This document shows, in pieces, positions 18,719 through 32,498 of a stretch of 64,000 nucleotides of DNA. Within the stretch, counting starts at the first letter, position 1; each line of letters begins with the position of its first letter. Source of the DNA: a virus; the IMG/VR virus record IMGVR_UViG_3300031857_015401, positions 1 to 64,000 of that record, one strand, 5' to 3'. The position numbers and the translations under genes were made by a program. Below the pieces are notes generated by a model, which made no database searches, had not been told where the DNA came from, and saw nothing but the letters and a program-made list of their open reading frames with translations.

Positions 18719-21700
18719 TTAGCTCATTGTTTTTTTAAGATTAAAGTATGTTGATTGAACATCAACAGTTGACCAAATATCTTTTAGTTGTTGATCATAA
18801 GGTGCTTGTGTTGGGTTTTGTTTTTTGTAGTCCATAATTCTTTCTTTGTCTTGACTAAACGGTGTGTATGTGTTATTTGGTAAAAACGTATTTAAAAATT
18901 CATCTTTAAACTTTTTAAACTGTTCATCTGTTTTCTTTTTTGATCTTTCAAAATCTTGATATAAACCAAAAGGTCTTTTAGTAATGTTATTTGTATTAGG
19001 ATCATAAACAAAACCCATATTAGATAAAATAAATCTTTTCCACTCATCTCTTTTTTCTTCATTACTATTTTCACCTAATGGTATTACACTAACGATATTA
19101 TCGGCGAACTTTAAGTAATCGTCTAATATGTCTTTTCCAAATAACATAAAAAATCTATTCACACCTTTTTGTACTGTTTGATAACCTTCGGCAAAATCAT
19201 TACTTTCTCTTAAAAACATTTGAAATGAATAATCAGTATTATATGTGAATGGCGTGCCGCTAGGTATTATAGCATATTCATTCATTTTTGACATGTAAGT
19301 ATTTAAATCATCTTTAATTTTATAAAAATCATTTATAAATTCGTCAAATGTGTTTGTCGTACCATACCCAGGTGTTGTTGGGTGAACGTCTCCTGTTGTT
19401 CCTGAAATATCATAAACCACAACACCTCCTCTTTTATTAATATAACCGTCGACTTTATTTGATATGTAATTCATTTGGTCACTTATACTTATAAATGATA
19501 GTGTGGTTTTAACTATACTACCCTGAGCCTCGCCTAATATTTTTAATAAAGGACTATATTTTGAATCTATTGTTTCTGTTATTTTTCTTTTTATTTTTCT
19601 TTTTTCATTGTTTGTAAAATTAGTTTCGTCTAAACCGGCAAGTATTGGGCATTCGCCAGAATCAATATCTTTTTTGGCATCAGAAATTAAATCAACTACT
19701 CTTTTTGCGTAAGCACTTGATCTTCCAAAAATATTAACAACATTAGTAGAATCACCACTTAACCAATTAAATAATCCTTGGTTGTATTTTCTTTCTGAAT
19801 TATATAAAGTAATACCACCTATTAATGATTCGTTTTTAATTTTTTCAAAATTATTAAACAATGATAGATAATACTCTTGAGTTGTTTTAACTAACTCATT
19901 CATTTTTTCTTTATATTTGATTGTTCCTGTTACGGCACTTGTGGACACATCTAAAAAATTAGTTAATATTGTACCTATTGGGTTACCTGCCGGATTTCCT
20001 GGTGTGGTGTCACCTGTAAATGTACCATATTCGTTTTTAAAATCCTCAAGAAGTTCCGCATCAATATTTTCATAAATTTTTTCAGTTTCTTCAGCTCTTT
20101 CATCATACATCTCAGTATTAGCATAATAATTAAACGTAAGTGCGTTTTGTATTGTGGCCACCGGACCAGCTAAACCTTGTCCTCCTATAAATTTTAATTG
20201 TAAAGTAACCTCAGCAATCATTGGTTGTAAACCAATTCCTTCAGGATTAATATCAAATTTTAAATCGTCATATTTAAAACTAACACTATCAATTATTGCC
20301 TTTGTGTGGTAAAAATCACCAACCCTAATAACCACTACAGGCGGAGTACCAAAAGCACTGTTAAATACATCATTATACTGAAATTCTGTTTGTCCTTGAT
20401 TTCCGGCTGAAACCGCAGTTGGGATTGTGTCCCCTGGTCTAGTACATTGATTTAAAAATGTTAATCTAGAATTTAAACCTTCGGGAGTCATTGAATGAAA
20501 TGCTGGTTGAAAATTTTTAATCTTACTTTTTATGCCGTCAAATATCATAGGTTGTTGTTCTTGTAACATTTCAAAATAATCGCATTCTGATAATAATTTT
20601 CTTAATAATTTTTTTGTTAGTCCTTTTGTGTTTGCTTTTGCACTATTAACTTTTATTTGGTTACTTACTGTTTGGTATTGTGGTGTATTACTTTCCGTAT
20701 TATTATTATCAGCGGCAGTTATGTCAGGTCCGCTACCTTCAGGGTTTGTTGCTAAATTATCCGTATTATTTGTTTTATTGTCGTCGACAATTTCAGGTGG
20801 TGTTACTTTTACTTCTGTAACTGTAACTCTACGACATAACATTGCCTGAACGGAACTTTTTCCATCTTTTTTTTCATTTTGAAAAGCTTTAGAACAATCT
20901 ATATTAGAATACTTTGGTGTTTTTAAAGTGGAATTCTTACCTTCCGCCAATGTATTAATTTTTAATTTATTATTTTCTATATATTTTTTAAAGTCAACAC
21001 CTCCATGTGTTTTTCCTGTAATTGTTTGTAAAACAGAATCAAATCTTCTAGATGAAAGTTTATCGTTATAATCATCACTACCATTAGCATTTGCTGACGA
21101 AACTAAAGAAAATTCCACACCAGCATCAGATTCTAATGCGTTTGCTATTTTTGTTAAAAATTCATCAAACTTACTTTTTTGTGCCTCAATATCATTCCAA
21201 ATTTCAGATACGCTTGATTTTTTCCATATTATATATTCATTTGGTACATTTTCAATTGTAGTGTCAGTTGGTATATCTTTACTTATTTTAAAAGTTCCGT
21301 ATTTAATGTAATACCCATCAGTATAAGGTGCATAACTTGGTATTCCGTTTAAATATATATCTTTTTCATTAATAAAACTAGAGTAAAGAGTATCGTAATC
21401 TTTATCACTCATTGTATTATTTTTTACCTCTATTGGTAATCCTTGACCAAAAAATAAAATAATTTCCTCAAATTTACCTCCAGCACTTGATTCTTCGTTT
21501 ATTTCATCAACAAGTTTTTGAGTATCTGTTGTTTGGTTTTCACCACTATCTAAATCTTGGTTTTTATCAATATTAACTTCCCCTTTTGGTTGTTCGTTTG
21601 GTATTTCTGCAATAACTTGTTTTATTTCATTTCTTGTTGTTAATGCTTCTGTTGCCTCAAATATATCACTTAAACTAAATTGTCTATATTTTCTTAATAA

Positions 21701-24577
21701 ATCAATTGGATCGTATTCTAAACATCCAGCAAAAAATGAATCAATTATTTTTGTTGCTTCGCTAGCACTTTCTTTTTCTAATTCTTTTTGGACTAATACG
21801 TTTAATATTGATGGGTGGTCAACAACTATTTTAAAACTTAAAGATCCTGATCTTTCCGTATTTTTATATAAATAAACAGGTTCGGGTCTTCCGATAAAAC
21901 TTGTTCCTTCCCATCTTGCTTGTGAAGTATCACTATAAGATAAATCATAAGGAGGAAACCACATAATTCTTCCACCATTAGGACCTATTTCACATGCCGG
22001 TAAATCATCAACTCTAAATCCAGGCCTACTTGAAGTTCTCCAAGCTAAATTTTCTATTGACAACATATATTTAGTAACCTTACCACCGACTATGTTCGTT
22101 GCCGACAAATTGTCTGACGATTTCATTGGGGCTATATTTAAGTTGTATGTGTTAGATAATACAGAATTGTCAAAATTTCTTATATTTTTTCCTTTTTTTT
22201 GTAGTTCGTTAAATGTGAAGTAAGGCCTATCTTTAGTGAATAACCTACAGTATTCGTACCCTTTAATTGTTGCCGTTTTATTAACAGAATTAGGTGTTGT
22301 GTATCTAATTACTCTAGAACCTTTTGTTAATTCTAAAAGTCCATCTTTAAAAACTTTTGAGACTTGGTTAATGGCGTTTCCAACATGTTCAGTTCTTCTT
22401 GATGAACTGTTAGCCGCATTAACTAATTTTTGGGTGATGTCTAATATAGAACCTTCTTTAAAGTCAAATTCGGTTGACTTTGATTTATTATATTCCGGAC
22501 CAAAACTTGCTTGTTCAAAAACAGTGTCCGTACCTACTGAGTTTTCTTGTTTGTTACCAGGACCAACAAATTTACCCGGATCATAAATGTTATTTTTAGC
22601 AATCCAAGTAAGCCCTCCTTGTATTCCTACAGAATCGTAAAAAGGTTTAGCATAAACACCAAAAAGTATGTTTGTTACTTTTTCTCCTTCATATTCTTTT
22701 GAGACTTCACTATAACTATAAACAGGTCCAATGTTTGGTTTTCCAAACTTACCTGCCGGTTGGTCATTTTTAGGACTTACTAAATCTTTTAAATAATTAT
22801 TAGATCTACCAACATAAAAATTACCTTTAGGTGCCAATAAATTAGGACTCTGTATTGATGACAACAAATAGTTAGGTCTATAATTATTATAAAATAATTG
22901 ATCAAATAATAGGTTTCTAACTTGTGGTGATGTGTTAGCTAAAAATAATTCCGATGAACTATCAATAAATGGCGTTGTTAAATCATTTATTAAATTACCT
23001 AATTGAGATGCAACCGCACCAACAGGATTTGTTAGACTTTGATTTAAAAAATTTCTGCTTGGGTAATCAAAATAACTGCCGGGTATTATTGAATATGGTG
23101 AATATAAACCGGAAAGTCTTGTAGCGAAATCAGCCGCCTTTAATACTAAATTTGGTGGTTCAGTAATTTTAAAATCTCTTTGTATTATTGGTAAATTATT
23201 TGATAGTACCCCTAACACATCAAAAGGATTTAAACTTGGTTGAACTGATATACCTCCACTTTCAGGATTAATAGTTGAATTAGTGAGTGTTGATTTACCG
23301 AGTGTTTGTTGTAGTAATTCAAACGCAACTCTAGCCTTAAATTCTTTTTGTAGTTGTTTTGCCCCTAATTGTGCTAAAGCAGAGTCTTGACTTAATTTAC
23401 CTTCACTACCATTAATACTTTCCACATTGTCTGTTGTTAAAATACTAATTGGTAAGTATTCTGATGGTATAAACGCAAACGTAGAGTCACTATTTAAATA
23501 AGGTTTATTAATACTTTGATTAATAAAATCCTCAATTGTTAATTCAGAAAATTCACCTTCTCCGTTATTGTATCTATTTTTTACATAAAAAAAGTTTTTA
23601 GATTCTTGTGTTGTTTTACTAGGTGAAGAAGTTTCATAGTTATATTCACCTTTATTTGGTTTTTGTTCTACTTTTACATTAGGTTCAGCAATTGTAGGGT
23701 TATTAGGTTGATATTGGTTATTTAATAAAATAGTTAAATTTTGTTCTCCTAATATTTCTAAATTACTATTATCACCTGAACTTTCTGTTGGTAAGTACTC
23801 GCCAAAATTAGATCCAATAGAAAGATATTTATTTATGTTTACAGTACTACCATAAGACCTTCCTTTAGATATTGGTGCGTATTTATTTCTTGTGTATTCT
23901 TTTATTTCTTCTTCTTGCCCAATAGCCTCTAATCTACTACCGTCCGCATCTGTCTGATCTAGATATTCACCAGCATTTGCACCAAGAGTAAATACATCAA
24001 ATAAAACTGTTTGACCATATTGACCTGTTTGTTTTTGAGGTCCAAATTTATTTAAAACTCTTAATACTTTTTCTTGTTCATTACCTTTTAATTCTAAATC
24101 ACTTCCAACACTATCAGAAATTCCGTAATTACCTTCATTTGCCTTAGTTTGAAAATTTTGATTAGGATTAACAATAAACTTACTTTGACCTGATTCAGGA
24201 CCATATTGATTTTGTACTAATAAATCTGTTTTTTTATTTTGTCCTATTCTTTCTATAGTCGAAAACAATGTTTTTGAAAAATCATAAAAACCTAAATTGG
24301 TTTGTGTGTTTTGATTAATATTTATATTAACAATATCCCCAAAACCATTATTTCCTGGAGTATATTTATTTAACCCTATAAGTGTTGGTTCAATTAATTT
24401 AGAAGTAATATCTATTGGGGTACTATCAATAACTGAATAATCAATTAAAACTAAATCTCTTTGTTCTGATTTTAATGGTGCATTATAAAAACCGTCAACC
24501 TTGTAAGGTTTTAAATTTTTTAGTAAAAGTTTTTTTCTAAAATTTTCAGTCGAGTCAAATGATAATGGGCTTTCCAT
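18719..24577 (-). CDS. Giant tail/baseplate structural protein (1952 aa) with six ~54-aa N-terminal repeats
   Basis: 1952 aa. Residues 70-340 contain six degenerate repeats, each opening with N(K/Q/R)(Y/F)xP-like at positions 70, 123, 176, 231, 287 and 334, several of them containing a G(E/N)Y element. The middle has structural-protein strands (RSGSLSFKIVVDHPSI). Near residue 1380-1500 the segment PPVVVIRVGDFYHTKAI... followed by IAEVTLQLKFIGGQGLAG looks like a tail-tube-initiator or LysM-bearing baseplate domain, comparable in type to gp48/gp54-class proteins; this is tentative. No catalytic motif was found. It is the first gene of the coupled run 1952aa-gp53-2145aa, with an exact TATTTATA box 13 bases before the ATG. 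Confidence 0.65.
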   Translation of the reverse strand: MESPLSFDSTENFRKKLLLKNLKPYKVDGFYNAPLKSEQRDLVLIDYSVIDSTPIDITSKLIEPTLIGLNKYTPGNNGFGDIVNININQNTQTNLGFYDFSKTLFSTIERIGQNKKTDLLVQNQYGPESGQSKFIVNPNQNFQTKANEGNYGISDSVGSDLELKGNEQEKVLRVLNKFGPQKQTGQYGQTVLFDVFTLGANAGEYLDQTDADGSRLEAIGQEEEIKEYTRNKYAPISKGRSYGSTVNINKYLSIGSNFGEYLPTESSGDNSNLEILGEQNLTILLNNQYQPNNPTIAEPNVKVEQKPNKGEYNYETSSPSKTTQESKNFFYVKNRYNNGEGEFSELTIEDFINQSINKPYLNSDSTFAFIPSEYLPISILTTDNVESINGSEGKLSQDSALAQLGAKQLQKEFKARVAFELLQQTLGKSTLTNSTINPESGGISVQPSLNPFDVLGVLSNNLPIIQRDFKITEPPNLVLKAADFATRLSGLYSPYSIIPGSYFDYPSRNFLNQSLTNPVGAVASQLGNLINDLTTPFIDSSSELFLANTSPQVRNLLFDQLFYNNYRPNYLLSSIQSPNLLAPKGNFYVGRSNNYLKDLVSPKNDQPAGKFGKPNIGPVYSYSEVSKEYEGEKVTNILFGVYAKPFYDSVGIQGGLTWIAKNNIYDPGKFVGPGNKQENSVGTDTVFEQASFGPEYNKSKSTEFDFKEGSILDITQKLVNAANSSSRRTEHVGNAINQVSKVFKDGLLELTKGSRVIRYTTPNSVNKTATIKGYEYCRLFTKDRPYFTFNELQKKGKNIRNFDNSVLSNTYNLNIAPMKSSDNLSATNIVGGKVTKYMLSIENLAWRTSSRPGFRVDDLPACEIGPNGGRIMWFPPYDLSYSDTSQARWEGTSFIGRPEPVYLYKNTERSGSLSFKIVVDHPSILNVLVQKELEKESASEATKIIDSFFAGCLEYDPIDLLRKYRQFSLSDIFEATEALTTRNEIKQVIAEIPNEQPKGEVNIDKNQDLDSGENQTTDTQKLVDEINEESSAGGKFEEIILFFGQGLPIEVKNNTMSDKDYDTLYSSFINEKDIYLNGIPSYAPYTDGYYIKYGTFKISKDIPTDTTIENVPNEYIIWKKSSVSEIWNDIEAQKSKFDEFLTKIANALESDAGVEFSLVSSANANGSDDYNDKLSSRRFDSVLQTITGKTHGGVDFKKYIENNKLKINTLAEGKNSTLKTPKYSNIDCSKAFQNEKKDGKSSVQAMLCRRVTVTEVKVTPPEIVDDNKTNNTDNLATNPEGSGPDITAADNNNTESNTPQYQTVSNQIKVNSAKANTKGLTKKLLRKLLSECDYFEMLQEQQPMIFDGIKSKIKNFQPAFHSMTPEGLNSRLTFLNQCTRPGDTIPTAVSAGNQGQTEFQYNDVFNSAFGTPPVVVIRVGDFYHTKAIIDSVSFKYDDLKFDINPEGIGLQPMIAEVTLQLKFIGGQGLAGPVATIQNALTFNYYANTEMYDERAEETEKIYENIDAELLEDFKNEYGTFTGDTTPGNPAGNPIGTILTNFLDVSTSAVTGTIKYKEKMNELVKTTQEYYLSLFNNFEKIKNESLIGGITLYNSERKYNQGLFNWLSGDSTNVVNIFGRSSAYAKRVVDLISDAKKDIDSGECPILAGLDETNFTNNEKRKIKRKITETIDSKYSPLLKILGEAQGSIVKTTLSFISISDQMNYISNKVDGYINKRGGVVVYDISGTTGDVHPTTPGYGTTNTFDEFINDFYKIKDDLNTYMSKMNEYAIIPSGTPFTYNTDYSFQMFLRESNDFAEGYQTVQKGVNRFFMLFGKDILDDYLKFADNIVSVIPLGENSNEEKRDEWKRFILSNMGFVYDPNTNNITKRPFGLYQDFERSKKKTDEQFKKFKDEFLNTFLPNNTYTPFSQDKERIMDYKKQNPTQAPYDQQLKDIWSTVDVQSTYFNLKKTMS

Positions 24578-24617: not shown

Positions 24618-26591
24618 TTATTTAGTGATCCCTTTATCTGCCATAAAGTTTCCTTTTCTATCAATAATATTTAGTATTTTTCTTTTCATTTTTTCATTAA
24701 AATCACTATCTTTAGATAACATATCGGATAATGTACCATTGCTTGTTACGTTTACGTTGATATTAATGTCTCCTGATGCCTCAATTTTTTCAACTCTTTC
24801 TTCTTTTTTTTCTGAAATTTTAGTTTCTGAAACATTTGATGGTATACTATTTATAGTGTCTCTCATACTTAACATACTAAGATATGAATTTTTCAATATA
24901 TCTAAATTTTTTAATAGGTTTGGAGCAAATACTGCTTCATCTTCTTTCAAGAAACTAAACATCTCACCTTTTTCAAGTGATAAAACTTTATTACCGGTAG
25001 AAAAAGCGGCATCATCTTTACTTTTAGTACCATAACCAGTACTAAATTGGGCGGTATCATCACTTTGATTATAAGTAATTTTTAAATTATCACTAGTAAT
25101 TGACGCATCCCGTATCATAATATCCCTTTCTGCTTGTGTAATTTCATCTTTTTGTCGATTTTTATTAGAAAATTCGGCCATATTATTATTAAGTGCTTCG
25201 GTAGCGGCACCAAGAGTGGCGGAAGTCAAATCTTTAGTAGCATCTAATGTAATATCAACACCTTGTCTATATTGTTCAATTATATCATTTCTTTTATCTG
25301 CACTCAACGAATTTAATAAAGTATCTCTAATAATTCTAGCATCTTTATTTAATGACTCTTGTAATGTAAGACCCTTAGCTGCGGTTTCTTGTTCTGAAAG
25401 TGATGCGTTTTTTTGGTAGGCTTCTAATGCAGATTGTATTGCTGCTGGTTGTGATGTCATGGCGGATTCTAAATCATCGGTTTTGAAACCTGGTATATCT
25501 AAAGTTAATTTTCCTCCTTTTACTTCAGTAAGCGATGATAATAAATCTTTACTTTCTTGTGGCATACCTTCACCAAACCCAGTAAGATTCATTTTGTTTA
25601 TAACTTCTTGTGCCTTAAATGCTTCTCTACCTATTTTTGTAAATTCATCTAAACTTTTTCCAAAGGCGGTTGCCTGTTCCTTTAGTCTCATTCTAGAAAG
25701 AGGATCTATTTCTATTTCTCCTGTTGCCTTATTTATTTTAAAAGCATTTGCCGCCATTTTTGTCATTTCATCTTGTAACTGACCAACGTCATTCATCCCC
25801 ATATCCATTAACTTAAATGGATTACCTAAATTACCAATAGCACCACCTAACATTTGTAAATTTGCGGCGGTTTCAATTGCTTTTTCTGGATCCCAAAAAT
25901 CTTGAGCCTTTGTCAACGCACCAATAGCATCAACGTCTGTTCTTAATCTTTGTGCTTGTTTAACCATGTCAGCCAGTCCTTGAACTCCGTTTTTAAAACC
26001 GTAGGAATCCACGCTTTTTAATTTACCCTCAATTTCTTTTAAAACTTTCCCACTATCTAATCCAACCATTTTGGCTTCTTTTGATAAACGTTGTATTGTT
26101 TCAATTGATTTAGATTGGGATCCTTCCATTCTAATAAAACTAGATACCATAGTACCAAGTTCTCCTGACGCAATATTCAACGCCTTTGATAAGAACACCA
26201 TAGAACCCGCAACATCCATCGCGTTTCCTTTAGAATCTTTCATTGTTGATACCAAGTCATTGGATAAAAACACAACTTTACCCATTCCTTTTGAAAAATT
26301 TTCAACTTCTTTTGTAATGTCTTCAAATTTTCCCCCTATTTCTAATACGTTCTTGTATGATTTTAATAATTGTTCTCTAAAATTTGACGATTCAAAGACC
26401 ATTCCACTAGCCATCGTTCTTTGTAACTTAATGGCTTGGTCTTCCATTTCAGTTAATGCCCGAATAGTAGTTGATGGTTTTGCTAACGCCTCGATGGATT
26501 CTTTTATCGTGCTTAAAACTTCATTAATCGCCACCCCTTTTGCGTCCCATTCTTTAGGAGCACCTCCTGCTGCTGCAAAAAATAACATCAT
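24618..26591 (-). CDS. Tape-measure-like tail protein
   Basis: 657 aa, starting at two adjacent ATGs (MMLFFAAAGGAPKEWDAKG). Almost the whole chain is predicted helical with alternating charged and small residues (for example GKVLKEIEGKLKSVDSYG), ending in a charged tail, as in tail tape-measure proteins. T4 gp29, which fills this role, is 590 aa, so length fits a T4-sized tail. It sits between gp26 and the giant baseplate proteins, the usual location. The assignment rests on composition, size and context rather than a specific motif. A TATTTATT box lies 16 bases upstream. Confidence 0.7.
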   Translation of the reverse strand: MMLFFAAAGGAPKEWDAKGVAINEVLSTIKESIEALAKPSTTIRALTEMEDQAIKLQRTMASGMVFESSNFREQLLKSYKNVLEIGGKFEDITKEVENFSKGMGKVVFLSNDLVSTMKDSKGNAMDVAGSMVFLSKALNIASGELGTMVSSFIRMEGSQSKSIETIQRLSKEAKMVGLDSGKVLKEIEGKLKSVDSYGFKNGVQGLADMVKQAQRLRTDVDAIGALTKAQDFWDPEKAIETAANLQMLGGAIGNLGNPFKLMDMGMNDVGQLQDEMTKMAANAFKINKATGEIEIDPLSRMRLKEQATAFGKSLDEFTKIGREAFKAQEVINKMNLTGFGEGMPQESKDLLSSLTEVKGGKLTLDIPGFKTDDLESAMTSQPAAIQSALEAYQKNASLSEQETAAKGLTLQESLNKDARIIRDTLLNSLSADKRNDIIEQYRQGVDITLDATKDLTSATLGAATEALNNNMAEFSNKNRQKDEITQAERDIMIRDASITSDNLKITYNQSDDTAQFSTGYGTKSKDDAAFSTGNKVLSLEKGEMFSFLKEDEAVFAPNLLKNLDILKNSYLSMLSMRDTINSIPSNVSETKISEKKEERVEKIEASGDININVNVTSNGTLSDMLSKDSDFNEKMKRKILNIIDRKGNFMADKGITK

Positions 26592-26621: not shown

Positions 26622-26801
26622 TTATTTTTTTTCATATTCTTTATGTAATTTGTCCATGAAATATTTTCTTTCAAAAATAGGCATAACCATCAGGTCAGAA
26701 TACGAAAACTTTCCGTATTTAACTAAATAATAAAATTCGTCTAATTGGTATTTTTTAAATTCAGAAGAAAGGCCGAAAAAATTCCACCCCAAAAGTAACA
26801 T
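26622..26801 (-). CDS. 59-aa ORF overlapping the end of gp26 (tail assembly chaperone-like, possible frameshift extension)
   Basis: 59 aa from ATG at 26801 (MLLLGWNFFGLSSEFKK), +1 relative to gp26 and overlapping it by 41 bases. The body QLDEFYYLVKYGKFSYSDLM then MPIFERKYFMDKL is typical of small phage tail-assembly chaperone subunits, with the FER motif. It lies between gp26 and the tape-measure gene, exactly where many tailed phages place the second chaperone reading frame. It could be translated from its own ATG, or as a gp26 fusion by a +1 (or -2) shift at the T6C run at 26775-26781. The frame has a stop (TAA) just before CTGTTAATG, so the overlap is confined to this window. Confidence 0.7.
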   Translation of the reverse strand: MLLLGWNFFGLSSEFKKYQLDEFYYLVKYGKFSYSDLMVMPIFERKYFMDKLHKEYEKK

Positions 26802-27513
26802 TAACAGTTACTTCTTCTCCAGACGGGGCGATTACTTTTTTTTGTAAGTCCATTTGTGGCTCACATTCGTTTATAAATTTTCTTAAATCTTTAGAATCAG
26901 ATATTGGCATGTTATTTATGAAAGTAGAAATTTGACCTTTATCTGTCGTTCCATCTATTTCAATTATTTGATTTTCCAATCTTTTAGTAACAACAGGAGT
27001 AATCATACCTTTTGGGTATGAATCCAATAATTGTTCAATTTTTTTATCATCACCTAAATTTAATAATTTAAATTTAACATTTTTTTGAGATTTAGGTAAA
27101 GTGTAAGAAAAATGTCCGTTCGAGTCTGGTTCGTGTTTTAAAGGTAAAAATGAAACCTCATCTAAAGTTACGGTCATTTCAAAATACTTATTAGTTTTTG
27201 GGTCCAAAATATTAAAATTATATTCAGGTCCAAATGCGGTATTTCTTAAAAATATTAATATAGCTTGAACATCGATATTCAGTAGTTGGTCAATATTAAA
27301 ACCTGGTTCATAAATTTTATTTTTTAAAAGTGATGTTACAATCCCTTCTTTTGAATTATTTTGAGACATTAATAAGTTTTCATCCGCGGCTGTTAAATAA
27401 CCAACCTTTAAAGATTCTTTTTTTGGTGTGTAAAAAACACCTTTAGATGGTAATTTTACCACGTCATGTGGTAAATTAAAATTTTGTTGTCCGTATTCTA
27501 TCGCTTGATCCAT
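26761..27513 (-). CDS. 26: Baseplate hub/assembly protein, T4 gp26-like
   Basis: 250 aa. The N-terminus (HDVVKLPSKGVFYTPKKESL followed by LTAADENLLMSQN) fits the T4_baseplate family of gp26-like proteins, which carry an LPSKG.fY motif and an E(D/N).L hinge. The C-terminus ends GVEFFRPFF. In T4 gp26 is a hub assembly factor; in related phages such proteins behave like tail-assembly chaperones. It is directly before an overlapping 59-aa ORF and then the tape-measure gene, supporting a chaperone role. Confidence 0.75.
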   Translation of the reverse strand: MDQAIEYGQQNFNLPHDVVKLPSKGVFYTPKKESLKVGYLTAADENLLMSQNNSKEGIVTSLLKNKIYEPGFNIDQLLNIDVQAILIFLRNTAFGPEYNFNILDPKTNKYFEMTVTLDEVSFLPLKHEPDSNGHFSYTLPKSQKNVKFKLLNLGDDKKIEQLLDSYPKGMITPVVTKRLENQIIEIDGTTDKGQISTFINNMPISDSKDLRKFINECEPQMDLQKKVIAPSGEEVTVNVTFGVEFFRPFF

Positions 27514-27606: not shown

Positions 27607-28095
27607 TTAATAAACTAATATACATCTATCAGGTTGTAATGTCATATCTACCATTGCTAAATCATCACCGCCATAACCAAGATCACCAAAAGAAGCCTTT
27701 GTAATTAAACATCCTTGTAAAATCCATTTCTCAACTGCTACTCCTGTTGGGTCTAACATTTCTAAATCAACATCTTTTTTATAACCCGCAGCATATCCCA
27801 TACGACCTGTCACTGATTCTGCGTGTAATCTAACCCACTCCATAACTGCCTGAGATGCTGATGGTCCGATTGGGTCACGTAGTTTTACTGTGATCTCTCC
27901 CCATTTGAATGATCCTGAAACATAAGTTTCGGTGTTCAGAAATTTAATTTCTTTTTTTCCAATATCAATACTTGGTCTTGATGCCGATTCTACATACCAT
28001 GAGTTTATACCCAAACTAGAGGGGAAAGTCATGATAAACCTATTTTTTCTTTTAGGTTCATACTGAAAGGGCATTCTCATTAATAAATCTGCCAT
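27607..28095 (-). CDS. 19: Tail tube protein, T4 gp19-like
   Basis: 162 aa, the same length as T4 gp19 (163 aa). It begins MADLLMRMPFQYEPKRKNRF and shows the tube pattern of alternating beta strands: NRFIMTFPSSLGINSWYVES, then a KWGEITVKLRDPIG strand and a C-terminal MVDMTLQPDRC strand. It polymerises into the rigid inner tube of the contractile tail. It is flanked by its own box (29 bases upstream) and terminator, fitting a highly expressed monocistronic gene. Confidence 0.85.
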   Translation of the reverse strand: MADLLMRMPFQYEPKRKNRFIMTFPSSLGINSWYVESASRPSIDIGKKEIKFLNTETYVSGSFKWGEITVKLRDPIGPSASQAVMEWVRLHAESVTGRMGYAAGYKKDVDLEMLDPTGVAVEKWILQGCLITKASFGDLGYGGDDLAMVDMTLQPDRCILVY

Positions 28096-29279: not shown

Positions 29280-32200
29280 TCACACATCTTCAAAAGATGC
29301 TCCCGTTGGTGTGATTACAAACTCGATGTCAATATATTCTAACGCTCTTGTTGGTTTTAAGTAAATTTTACCTGTTAATGTATTAGAATCTAAATCTTCA
29401 GGAGTGTTAGAAACGGTAACTCTAAAGTCAATTAAACCTCTGTCTCTTCTTATAGAATCTAATATTGGATTAACTGAGTCTAAGAATTGTTGTCTAACTT
29501 TATCGTCATTTTGTTCAAATAATAATCTTACTGCCACAGCTGAGATTAATTTTCTTGCTTGTAGTAACAATCTTCTTACGTTAATTCTGTCAAGTGCAGA
29601 TTCTTTAACTTGTAAAGTTTTATTACCCCAAATAACTGTACCAACATCAGAGAAAGTTGCAATTGGGTTAATTCTACCTTTATATAAAGTATCTCTATCT
29701 TCTTGAGTTAATTTTTTACGAGCTCTTACTGCATTTACTAAACCACGAGTATAACCTGCTGATGCAAACCAAGGGAAAGCTATGTTATCGGTTAAAGCTA
29801 AGTTTTTAACAACTTCAGCCGTTGGCGGTAAGTAAATTTGTGTATTATTAACACTATCTCTTGTTAAAACCCATGGGTAGTAAGTTGCGGTATAGTTAGA
29901 ATCGATTGTTGTCTCTTCTAATGAATCAACCGCTTCTTGTGGATATCTCAACCCTTCTTCAACATCTTGGTAAGAAGGTAATAATAAATTAAAGTCAGGT
30001 GTTGTACAAATGTAAATTGAATCCGCCCTATCTGTTTCAACCATATCAATTGCATCCTCAACTAAGTTTGAGTTATATACGTAATCAATACCTGGTGTTA
30101 CAAATACATTAATATTAACTGATTCAGGATTTGCAAAAGTTGTTTGACCCCATTTGTATGCGTAATAGTCAGTGTTCGCCCATGTTTCTTGGTTAGGACC
30201 TGCAATTTGTTTAAATGCTCCCCATCCAGACGCTGTTGGGTAAGTAGCTGATGATGCGGCTCCGTTTTTAAATCCTGATTGACCTAATGCAAATGAGTCT
30301 CCGTTTGTTCTACTTTCTCGATATATATCCCATCCGTCAAAACCACCGTATGCTAATAACGTGAATTTACGAGTGTTTAGTCTGTAGTAAGGGTTATCAC
30401 TATCTTCAGGTTCTGAATTAAATGATCCGGCACCAACTTCAAACATTTGAGTTGTTGCTGAATTAACAGTCATTGTTACAATAGTCGCCCCACTATCCAT
30501 ATGGAAACCTTTTGTAGTATAACCCCAAGATATGCCAACAGTATCAGTTGCTAAATTTGCTGGTATTTGTTTTCCTTTATAATCAAAAAAGTCATAATCA
30601 ACTCCTGTAATATTAGATATACCTAAGTAAGCTCTTCTTGGGTTTTCACCATTTGAAATCACTGGGTTGTCTCCACCTGAAGATGAACCAAATGGTGGGT
30701 TATATATTGTATCACCAGGTTGTAAATATCTTGTTTTATAAACTACAAATGGAGGTGTTGCATTAGCGTATTCTCTACTAATATAACCTTCAAATCCACA
30801 AGGTAATGCGTCTATAGGTGCTTCGTTATTAACCTCTAACATAACATATTTAGATTTAACTTCGTACTCACCATTAGATGTACCTATTTTGTTTGCAACA
30901 TAGTTATTTTGATTAGGATCCATAGAACAATTAGTAAAACTTTCTAAAACTCTTACGTTTTGATCATTATCATAAAAATCCCTAATGAATACATCAAAAG
31001 TTCCATTAGCAAATGATATATTTCCAATTGACATTTTAACTAGTCTGTTCGCGGCGTTACCATCAGAAATTAAAACAAACTTAAATAATTTATAAACTTT
31101 ATTACCTCTTAATTCAGAAACAACATACGGAGTTTCAGGGGTTTGGTATTGTTCTAAATAGAAAGCGATTGAATCGTTATAATCAAAGTTAGTTGTGTCT
31201 GTCACACCCGGTAGATCAATTAATTCATTGTAAATACCTCTAATTTTACCTAACCTATAACCGGTTAATAATAATGAAGTGTAAGATTCTTCAATAAATA
31301 AAGGTACTTCATTTCTATCTTTTCCAAAATTACTTCTTCCAAATACTTTAGATATGTATTTTGAATCTGTTGATGATAAAGATGTTTCAAAACTAAATGT
31401 TTCACTATCGTTTGTAATACCTGAAATTGCAAAAGTTTGGAATGGATTAGAAGATATTCCTGAATATGAACCTGTAGTTATTATATCAACTCCTGTGGTT
31501 GCACTTACTACAAATCTAGGTCCTTTTTGAGTACTAGAGTAATTAGTAATACCTCTTGATCTTAAAGTAGCGACTACTAAATTATCATAATCAGTATAAG
31601 GTGTTCCTGAATAATTAGTAATATATAACTCCATTTGACCTGAATAAACACCGCCAGTTAATCCTGTAATACCGTTTAATACTGCACCAAAACCATATCC
31701 ATAATAACTACCAATGTCATTGGCTCTACTATAAGAGAATAATGAGTAGTACCAAGGGTCATTAGAGAATGAAGAAACGTCGTTATTTGCAAAAATTACA
31801 TCATCAACACCAAACGTTTCTGTGAATGCTGTTGCCCCTCCACTTGTTATTGTTGCACCTGTGACAGCAGAAAAGGTAGGAGTATCTACTGAACCCCAAA
31901 AATACGCCGTTCTTCCTGAAAGTGCCGATGAATTAGCAAAGTAACCAATTTCATTTGAAATATATTCTTGAAAATCTAAATCTAATGTTGATGTTCCTCC
32001 AATACTATTTGTGTAGTTATTATAAAAACTTGAAGATAGTGGTGATGGAATTGTTCCTGTTATAGTTACTGTTCCTCCCGTTGTACCTGTAAAATACAAA
32101 TACACAGGTGTTGATGGGGTTGTTCCTGTAATACCTAAAGTACTACTATCTAAATTACCTGTAGTTACAATTGACCAAGACGGTCCAGCATCATAACCTG

Positions 32201-32498
32201 ATAACCCAAGTATTCTAGATACAAATAATTGATTTGATTGTTGTAAATATGCCTTAGCTATGTAAGCAGCTTCATATTTAGGTATTTGAGTATTTACAAA
32301 TTTTTCTGGACTTGTTCCACCAAAATATGTTTGAAACTCATCAAAATTAGTTATAAATATAGGTTCAAAGGCAGGACCCTGTAAAGTCTCACCAACTATT
32401 CCTAAAGTTGTTACACCAACACTTTGTGCAACGAAAGTTAAGTCTCTTTCTGAGGTATATACACCAGGAGAAACGAATACTTTTGTAGTAGATGCCAT
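29280..32498 (-). CDS. 18: Tail sheath protein, T4 gp18-like, enlarged
   Basis: 1072 aa. The N-terminus (TKVFVSPGVYTSERDLTFV, then TLGIVGETLQGPAFEP) and the C-terminus (TPEDLDSNTLTGKIYLKPTR followed by ALEYIDIEFVITPTGASFED) are hallmarks of the sheath family; the segment GTVIWGNKTL with RINVRRLLLQARKLI is the conserved inner domain. Sheath subunits assemble around the tube and contract. T4 gp18 is 659 aa, so about 400 extra residues, mostly Gly/Thr/Ser-rich beta sequence after residue about 110, probably form domains on the outer tail surface. A TATTTATA box lies 30 bases upstream. Confidence 0.9.
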   Translation of the reverse strand: MASTTKVFVSPGVYTSERDLTFVAQSVGVTTLGIVGETLQGPAFEPIFITNFDEFQTYFGGTSPEKFVNTQIPKYEAAYIAKAYLQQSNQLFVSRILGLSGYDAGPSWSIVTTGNLDSSTLGITGTTPSTPVYLYFTGTTGGTVTITGTIPSPLSSSFYNNYTNSIGGTSTLDLDFQEYISNEIGYFANSSALSGRTAYFWGSVDTPTFSAVTGATITSGGATAFTETFGVDDVIFANNDVSSFSNDPWYYSLFSYSRANDIGSYYGYGFGAVLNGITGLTGGVYSGQMELYITNYSGTPYTDYDNLVVATLRSRGITNYSSTQKGPRFVVSATTGVDIITTGSYSGISSNPFQTFAISGITNDSETFSFETSLSSTDSKYISKVFGRSNFGKDRNEVPLFIEESYTSLLLTGYRLGKIRGIYNELIDLPGVTDTTNFDYNDSIAFYLEQYQTPETPYVVSELRGNKVYKLFKFVLISDGNAANRLVKMSIGNISFANGTFDVFIRDFYDNDQNVRVLESFTNCSMDPNQNNYVANKIGTSNGEYEVKSKYVMLEVNNEAPIDALPCGFEGYISREYANATPPFVVYKTRYLQPGDTIYNPPFGSSSGGDNPVISNGENPRRAYLGISNITGVDYDFFDYKGKQIPANLATDTVGISWGYTTKGFHMDSGATIVTMTVNSATTQMFEVGAGSFNSEPEDSDNPYYRLNTRKFTLLAYGGFDGWDIYRESRTNGDSFALGQSGFKNGAASSATYPTASGWGAFKQIAGPNQETWANTDYYAYKWGQTTFANPESVNINVFVTPGIDYVYNSNLVEDAIDMVETDRADSIYICTTPDFNLLLPSYQDVEEGLRYPQEAVDSLEETTIDSNYTATYYPWVLTRDSVNNTQIYLPPTAEVVKNLALTDNIAFPWFASAGYTRGLVNAVRARKKLTQEDRDTLYKGRINPIATFSDVGTVIWGNKTLQVKESALDRINVRRLLLQARKLISAVAVRLLFEQNDDKVRQQFLDSVNPILDSIRRDRGLIDFRVTVSNTPEDLDSNTLTGKIYLKPTRALEYIDIEFVITPTGASFEDV

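Follow-up and report, generated by a model that had tools for sequence, protein, structure and literature searches.

A conserved slip site and a covarying 5' hairpin suggest +1 frameshifting in a phage tail assembly chaperone family

A 59-aa open reading frame (ORF) that overlaps the end of a larger gene, just upstream of an ORF in tape-measure position, raises the question of whether it encodes a small protein of its own or the C-terminal end of a frameshifted tail assembly chaperone (TAC). The locus lies in IMG/VR record IMGVR_UViG_3300031857_015401, a virus contig of 92,870 bases that is possibly a fragment; positions 1-64,000 of this record were analyzed and are referred to here as the window. 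TAC frameshifting is a classical phenomenon, and T4-like phages are among those known to use it. In phage lambda, gpG and gpGT are a short and a long form made from one locus, with the frameshift near the end of the N-terminal ORF and directly before the tape measure gene (PMC5009743). The original prediction held that a +1 slip at TTT TTT C fuses the 59-aa frame to the upstream gene, there called gp26. The overlap itself was confirmed, as the 59-aa ORF (26801..26622) lies in the +1 frame and shares 41 bases with the end of the 250-aa ORF (27513..26761). The features of the locus are as follows.

27607..28095, minus strand: tail tube protein (gp19-like; phrog_4542, E=1.8e-28), upstream neighbour of TAC-N
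26761..27513, minus strand: TAC-N, 250 aa, 0 frame (PF12322, phrog_150)
26786..26829, minus strand: 5' RNA hairpin (covariation with controls; arms in 52 independently found loci)
26829-26824 with 26791-26786, minus strand: hairpin helix 1, GCCCCG with UGGGGU
26823-26815, minus strand: conserved 9-nt hairpin bulge, UC[A/U]GGAGAA
26814-26807 with 26799-26792, minus strand: hairpin helix 2
26622..26801, minus strand: 59-aa ORF, +1 relative to TAC-N, with a 41-base overlap with the TAC-N end
26799..26801, minus strand: ATG of the 59-aa ORF, probably unused for TAC-C
26773..26781, minus strand: slip site UUU_UUU_CGG (TTTTTTCGG), with TTT_CGN conserved
26622..26774, minus strand: TAC-C, C-terminal domain of ~50 residues plus stop, +1 frame, open, under purifying selection and predicted to be helical
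24618..26591, minus strand: 657-aa ORF, downstream neighbour, in tape-measure position (assigned by position)

The 250-aa product matched PF12322 (T4_baseplate; E=1.3e-6, 28.7 bits, cut-off 24.5) and the baseplate hub family phrog_150 (E=5e-14), and T4 gp26 and T4 gp51 both match PF12322. The gene order of tube, TAC-N, TAC-C and tape-measure-position ORF is the placement known from gpG/gpGT, and a tape measure is annotated at the equivalent position in phages immuto, LIS04 and SP-15; the 657-aa ORF of the window had no family match in Pfam or PHROG searches. AlphaFold2 modelled the fused protein with a mean pLDDT of 83.6 and C-domain helices at residues 252-265, 271-276 and 279-295. Foldseek matched this model to T4-like baseplate hub assembly proteins, including that of SP-15, and a PDB fold search returned no match. 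Because of its PF12322 membership, gene order and fold, identification of the 250-aa ORF as a member of the T4 gp26/gp51 family, and by analogy as the N-domain of a tail assembly chaperone, is supported; the chaperone identity first proposed from sequence has thereby gained backing.

The 59 residues alone had no family match in Pfam or PHROG and no BLASTP match to T4 gp51, and TAC-C showed a weak likeness to the gp51 tail (hhalign E=0.002, probability 14%). Among relatives, the fused TAC-N and TAC-C protein aligned without gaps across the junction. PF12322 matches number two in T4 and one each in RM378, SP-15 and P-SSM2; the 92.9-kb record, a possible fragment, likewise contains one, which is not the two-gene strategy of T4. 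At least several hundred phage contigs carry this chaperone family (two scans found at least 570 and at least 600 encoding relatives).

Several other features of the tail region were recorded. A terminator-like hairpin with a T run lies between the tail tube gene and TAC-N (window 27582-27559, minus strand), and SP-15 has an annotated terminator at the matching place. The tail sheath protein (1072 aa, window 29280-32498, minus strand) is largely without family match in its N-terminal part, its best sheath family matches starting only at about residue 746. A 1952-aa tail-region protein (window 18719-24577, minus strand) had no Pfam or PHROG match, and no tRNA genes were found within the window.

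Relatives of the locus were collected from IMG/VR together with named phages, giving a close group of 82 distinct loci (52-100% identity over 660 nt) and a distant group of 80 loci. The +1 frame was open in all 82 close relatives, typically for 43-58 codons beyond the 0-frame stop unless the contig ended, and the -1 frame was mostly shut within ~16 codons. In the window the -1 frame closes no more than six codons after the 0-frame stop, and the locus does not have the layout of a canonical -1 site (X_XXY_YYZ). The median pN/pS of the +1 frame was 0.21 in the close group (409 pairs) and 0.16 in the distant group (155 pairs), and a MP...RKY motif is conserved within it among relatives. Since the frame is open in 82 distinct relatives and bears these marks of purifying selection, its openness is, judged from the alignments, far from chance. 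Among the distant relatives, loci L282-L286 are on contigs that share bins with genomes of Flavobacteriaceae, Winogradskyella and Saprospiraceae, a hint of Bacteroidota hosts.

The six-T run noted originally is present at 26781..26776, but the gene continues past this run instead of ending there as had been stated: after the second TTT the 0 frame continues CGG CCT TTC TTC TGA, with the stop at 26763-26761, four codons beyond. With few exceptions, the 0 frame of the close group reads GGG GNN GAN TTT TTT CGN CCT TTC TTC near the stop, and the second TTT is followed by CGN in 82/82 distinct close relatives. Elsewhere in the close-group genes CGN accounts for 13% of Arg codons and AGA for 79%, and CGG makes up 3/164 Arg codons in the tail genes of the window. 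Neither protein constrains the C that follows the T run, the key base of the site, which the original prediction had not singled out: the third position of CGN is free to vary, and AGA would give the same residue.

The corresponding site of the distant group is TTT TTT TGG in 69/80 loci, with TTT TTT TAC, TTT CTT TGG, TTT TTT TTC and CTT TTT TGG as the other forms; all 80 fit UUU or CUU followed by a pyrimidine, again with the continuation in +1. A single rule, UUU and then a pyrimidine, fits all 162 loci (82 close and 80 distant), and tRNA-Phe (anticodon GAA) could therefore re-pair one base forward. The comparison of T run and overlap across relatives that accompanied the original prediction thus recovered the site throughout both groups, and the locus has the conserved overlap and slippery site of a frameshifted tail assembly chaperone. 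In every contig inspected from the close and distant groups the site was consistent, save for one clade described below.

Conservation upstream of the site revealed a second element, which was not part of the original prediction. At the codon level, conservation peaks outside the dual-coded part, at GCC CCG .. GGA (codons 224-227) and at GGG (codon 237; 82/82 against an 11% background), and these codons correspond to the arms and bulge of an RNA hairpin. Its 3' end lies 6-7 nt upstream of the P-site UUU, a distance that is the same across 81 gap-free rows. Across 78 distinct rows, 90.4% of hairpin cells were paired against 82.4% after shuffling, and double-change cells numbered 80 against 30.8 in shuffles (SD 4.4) and at most 37 in versions slid along the alignment; 0/500 shuffles reached the covariation score of the hairpin. 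As shuffling and sliding leave relatedness in, all 2775 column pairs were also ranked under sequence weighting. The two top ranks went to hairpin pairs, and the five best of the 300 wobble-wobble pairs lay within the hairpin or extended it. Amino-acid constraint is unlikely to explain this covariation because the top pairs are wobble-to-wobble. The mean MFE z-score was -1.8 for the hairpin segment and -0.6 to 0 for upstream segments not overlapping it.

An independent test came from a scan with a pattern lacking the hairpin arms, which found 52 new distinct loci. All 52 had TAC-C in +1 and the arms at the fixed spacing to the slip codon, as CCCC..GGGG in 51 and GTCC..GGAC in one (L364). The L364 sequence is in register with the arms, but in its best fold GGAC is paired to a GUCC lying closer by, and it is thus no decisive proof. 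A hairpin common to the distant group was looked for and not found although the slip site is kept there, which argues that the strategy can do without the hairpin. Four distant-group loci (L145, L147, L179 and L184) have hairpin-like sequences of their own upstream of the site, at no shared position. Downstream of the slip site there was no strong folding signal that would indicate a 3' structural stimulator. A possible pseudoknot pairing the bulge GGAGAA with UUCUUC downstream of the site was set aside, as TTC TTC is already accounted for by the +1 reading LSS. No Shine-Dalgarno sequence of the release factor 2 type lies ~3 nt before the slip codon; the GGGG, which stops 8 nt short of the P-site UUU, is the 3' hairpin arm. 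The bulge (window 26823-26815, minus strand) is almost invariant and Shine-Dalgarno-like.

Other routes to the same C-domain have to be weighed against ribosomal +1 shifting. TAC-C could be a separate small protein, translated from the ATG at 26801 or by ribosomes re-initiating once TAC-N is finished, in which case no fusion would be made. The ATG put forward originally is present in the window, and the +1 frame is annotated as a separate gene in Mel-JY01 and RM378. That start is, however, not conserved: a +1-frame ATG is present in the 60 nt preceding the slip site in 42/82 close and 22/80 distant relatives, and no ATG, GTG or TTG is found in that interval in 8/82 and 39/80. In L092, L094, L127 and L129, among others, a +1-frame stop stands immediately 5' of the site. 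With start codons often absent and stops preceding the site, TAC-C would have to be reached by shifting; UUU_CGN is invariant while start codons vary, and T4 gp51 is a natural in-frame protein with N and C parts. A start codon kept without the slip site had been named as the pattern that would speak against the slip, and the opposite was seen. We therefore consider a separate protein extremely improbable. Slippage of RNA polymerase on the T run, aided by the nascent hairpin and leaving part of the mRNA one U short, would give an identical protein, and the order of hairpin and then U run fits it, as do runs of T6 in 81/82 close and T7 in 71/80 distant loci. A ribosome slipping -2, as in phage Mu, would reach the same frame with one extra Phe, and UUUUUU permits tRNA-Phe to re-pair two bases back in 157/162 loci. 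Both fail on relatives with a broken T run: L077, L170, L184, L193 and L013, and likewise GXN1 and L018, have only T3 and keep the frame. A long unbroken homopolymer in all members, as programmed transcriptional slippage would call for, is thus not found, polymerase slippage does not need the invariant C that follows the run in the close group, and a clade with the C-domain in -1 has no run. For the -2 slip, re-pairing is impossible in these same seven (in GXN1 and L018 by inspection), all of which allow +1, and a 5' hairpin should oppose backward movement. Polymerase slippage is accordingly improbable, and the -2 slip very improbable.

A further alternative concerns the hairpin and leaves the shift itself untouched. 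The hairpin may be an RNA element with another role, such as translation control, processing or protein binding at the GGAG bulge, that lies beside the site by chance. Conservation of the 9-nt bulge beyond what a plain stem needs is in its favour, but the spacing to the slip codon is fixed in 81 gap-free rows and in 52/52 new loci, no Rfam family was found for the hairpin, and terminator prediction made no call at the hairpin or slip site. We regard this alternative as unlikely, though it carries appreciable weight.

A +1 fusion is the best-supported reading because the slip site is conserved, the +1 frame is selected and the start codon is not conserved, and the slip first proposed is in this respect largely borne out. 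We give a probability of roughly 85% to the reading that the locus encodes a TAC pair, TAC-N and a minor +1 fusion TAC-NC made via UUU_CGG and favoured by the hairpin. The majority of ribosomes would terminate at 26763-26761 to give the short form, and a fraction would shift at UUU_CGG to give TAC-NC, predicted at 296 aa (...GVEFF/GLSSEFKK...). In the shift, the P-site peptidyl-tRNA(Phe) would move from UUU (26778-26776, wobble) to the overlapping UUC (26777-26775, full pairing), with the rare CGG still waiting in the A-site. The hairpin would re-form behind the ribosome near the E-site and probably pull on the mRNA or block backward movement, thereby favouring +1. The predicted junction peptide is ...GVEFFGLSSEFK..., in which EFFGLSS would mark a +1 and EFFFGLSS a -2 event. 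By analogy with gpG/gpGT, the mixture of TAC-N and TAC-NC would coat the tape measure, recruit tube subunits and then leave.

Each part of this mechanism has a precedent. Bacterial release factor 2 uses the +1 site CUU_UGA with an internal Shine-Dalgarno sequence. It shares with the window locus a YUU_Y slip rich in pyrimidines and a duplex of RNA upstream, and some relatives even have CUU_UGG; the window locus differs in its sense A-site codon, a duplex within the mRNA and longer spacing. The proven +1 site of influenza A PA-X (UCC_UUU_CGU; PMC3498833) combines UUU_C with a rare CGN codon in the A-site and has UUU_CGN and the UUU to UUC movement of tRNA-Phe in common with the window locus, but the gene is unrelated and the ribosome here is bacterial, making the likeness convergent at most. 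On 70S ribosomes, an upstream hairpin beside the E-site stimulated +1 and attenuated -1 shifting in synthetic constructs (Huang 2018, PMC6321510; see also PMC5009743); in Huang 2018 the effect on +1 in vitro was confined to reactions lacking RF2, which leave the A-site hungry. The SARS-CoV attenuator, the hairpins of Huang 2018 and the T4 gene 60 5' stem loop likewise stand next to the E-site, a few nt upstream of the shift site, but their +1 effects come from synthetic constructs or bypassing, whereas here the hairpin is conserved at an apparently natural +1 site. A +1 TAC frameshift is called very likely in the archaeal myovirus HSTV-2 (PMC5009743), which therefore shares direction and gene type with the window locus as far as that citing statement goes. 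Lambda gpG/gpGT has the same overlapping ORF at the end of the N-ORF, just before the gene in tape-measure position, but lambda shifts -1 and the window locus would shift +1 at UUU_Y with a 5' hairpin.

The same +1 arrangement was found in Streptococcus phage GXN1, Listeria phage LIS04, Bacillus phage SP-15, Flavobacterium phage immuto, Microcystis phage Mel-JY01, Rhodothermus phage RM378 and a megaphage contig. In three deposited phages the C-domain stands as a separate or truncated hypothetical gene (L013 4863-4973, L014 4740-4976, L106 4701-4877). T4-like TAC genes have the PF12322 N-domain in common with the window locus, but T4 uses two genes (gp26 short, gp51 long) and no shift in place of one gene and a +1 shift, and two cyanophages (P-SSM2 and S-PM2) as well as Salmonella phage Vi01 encode the C-domain in -1. 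The TACs of T4-like phages were reportedly identified by Vladimirov, Gautam and Davidson in 2022, and according to papers citing that work some T4-like phages are said to have two genes and others poly-T -1 sites. A sister clade within the present family (L160, L198-L206), which the original prediction did not include, also has TAC-C in the -1 frame, behind A_AAT_TTC in 10/10 contigs. Its TAC-N proteins are 57-67% identical, it has no T run, and its +1 frame closes early, L204 being cut off by the contig end. By sequence, A_AAU_UUC is a canonical -1 heptamer, and site type and C-domain frame appear to have changed together within one family, as would be expected if the fusion itself is under selection.

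Our literature search, in which Vladimirov 2022 was covered through citing papers, returned no description of a phage +1 site with a conserved 5' hairpin, and the UUU_Y site with its hairpin looks like a new variant of TAC frameshifting. We lean toward the view that this is a natural hairpin-driven phage +1 frameshift, in a family in which a reversal of direction went along with a change of site type and of C-domain frame (+1 UUU_Y against -1 A_AAU_UUC). The annotation of the 'hypothetical' ORF behind gp26-like genes, as in immuto, Mel-JY01 and RM378, would be corrected to that of a putative chaperone end. To our knowledge, natural cases of +1 frameshifting are scarce and difficult to recognize, and for this reason its rules are poorly understood. 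The family supplies a covarying 5' hairpin at fixed spacing and an internal -1 clade as a control, and if the proposed mechanism is true, rules of frameshift direction would become readable from nature.
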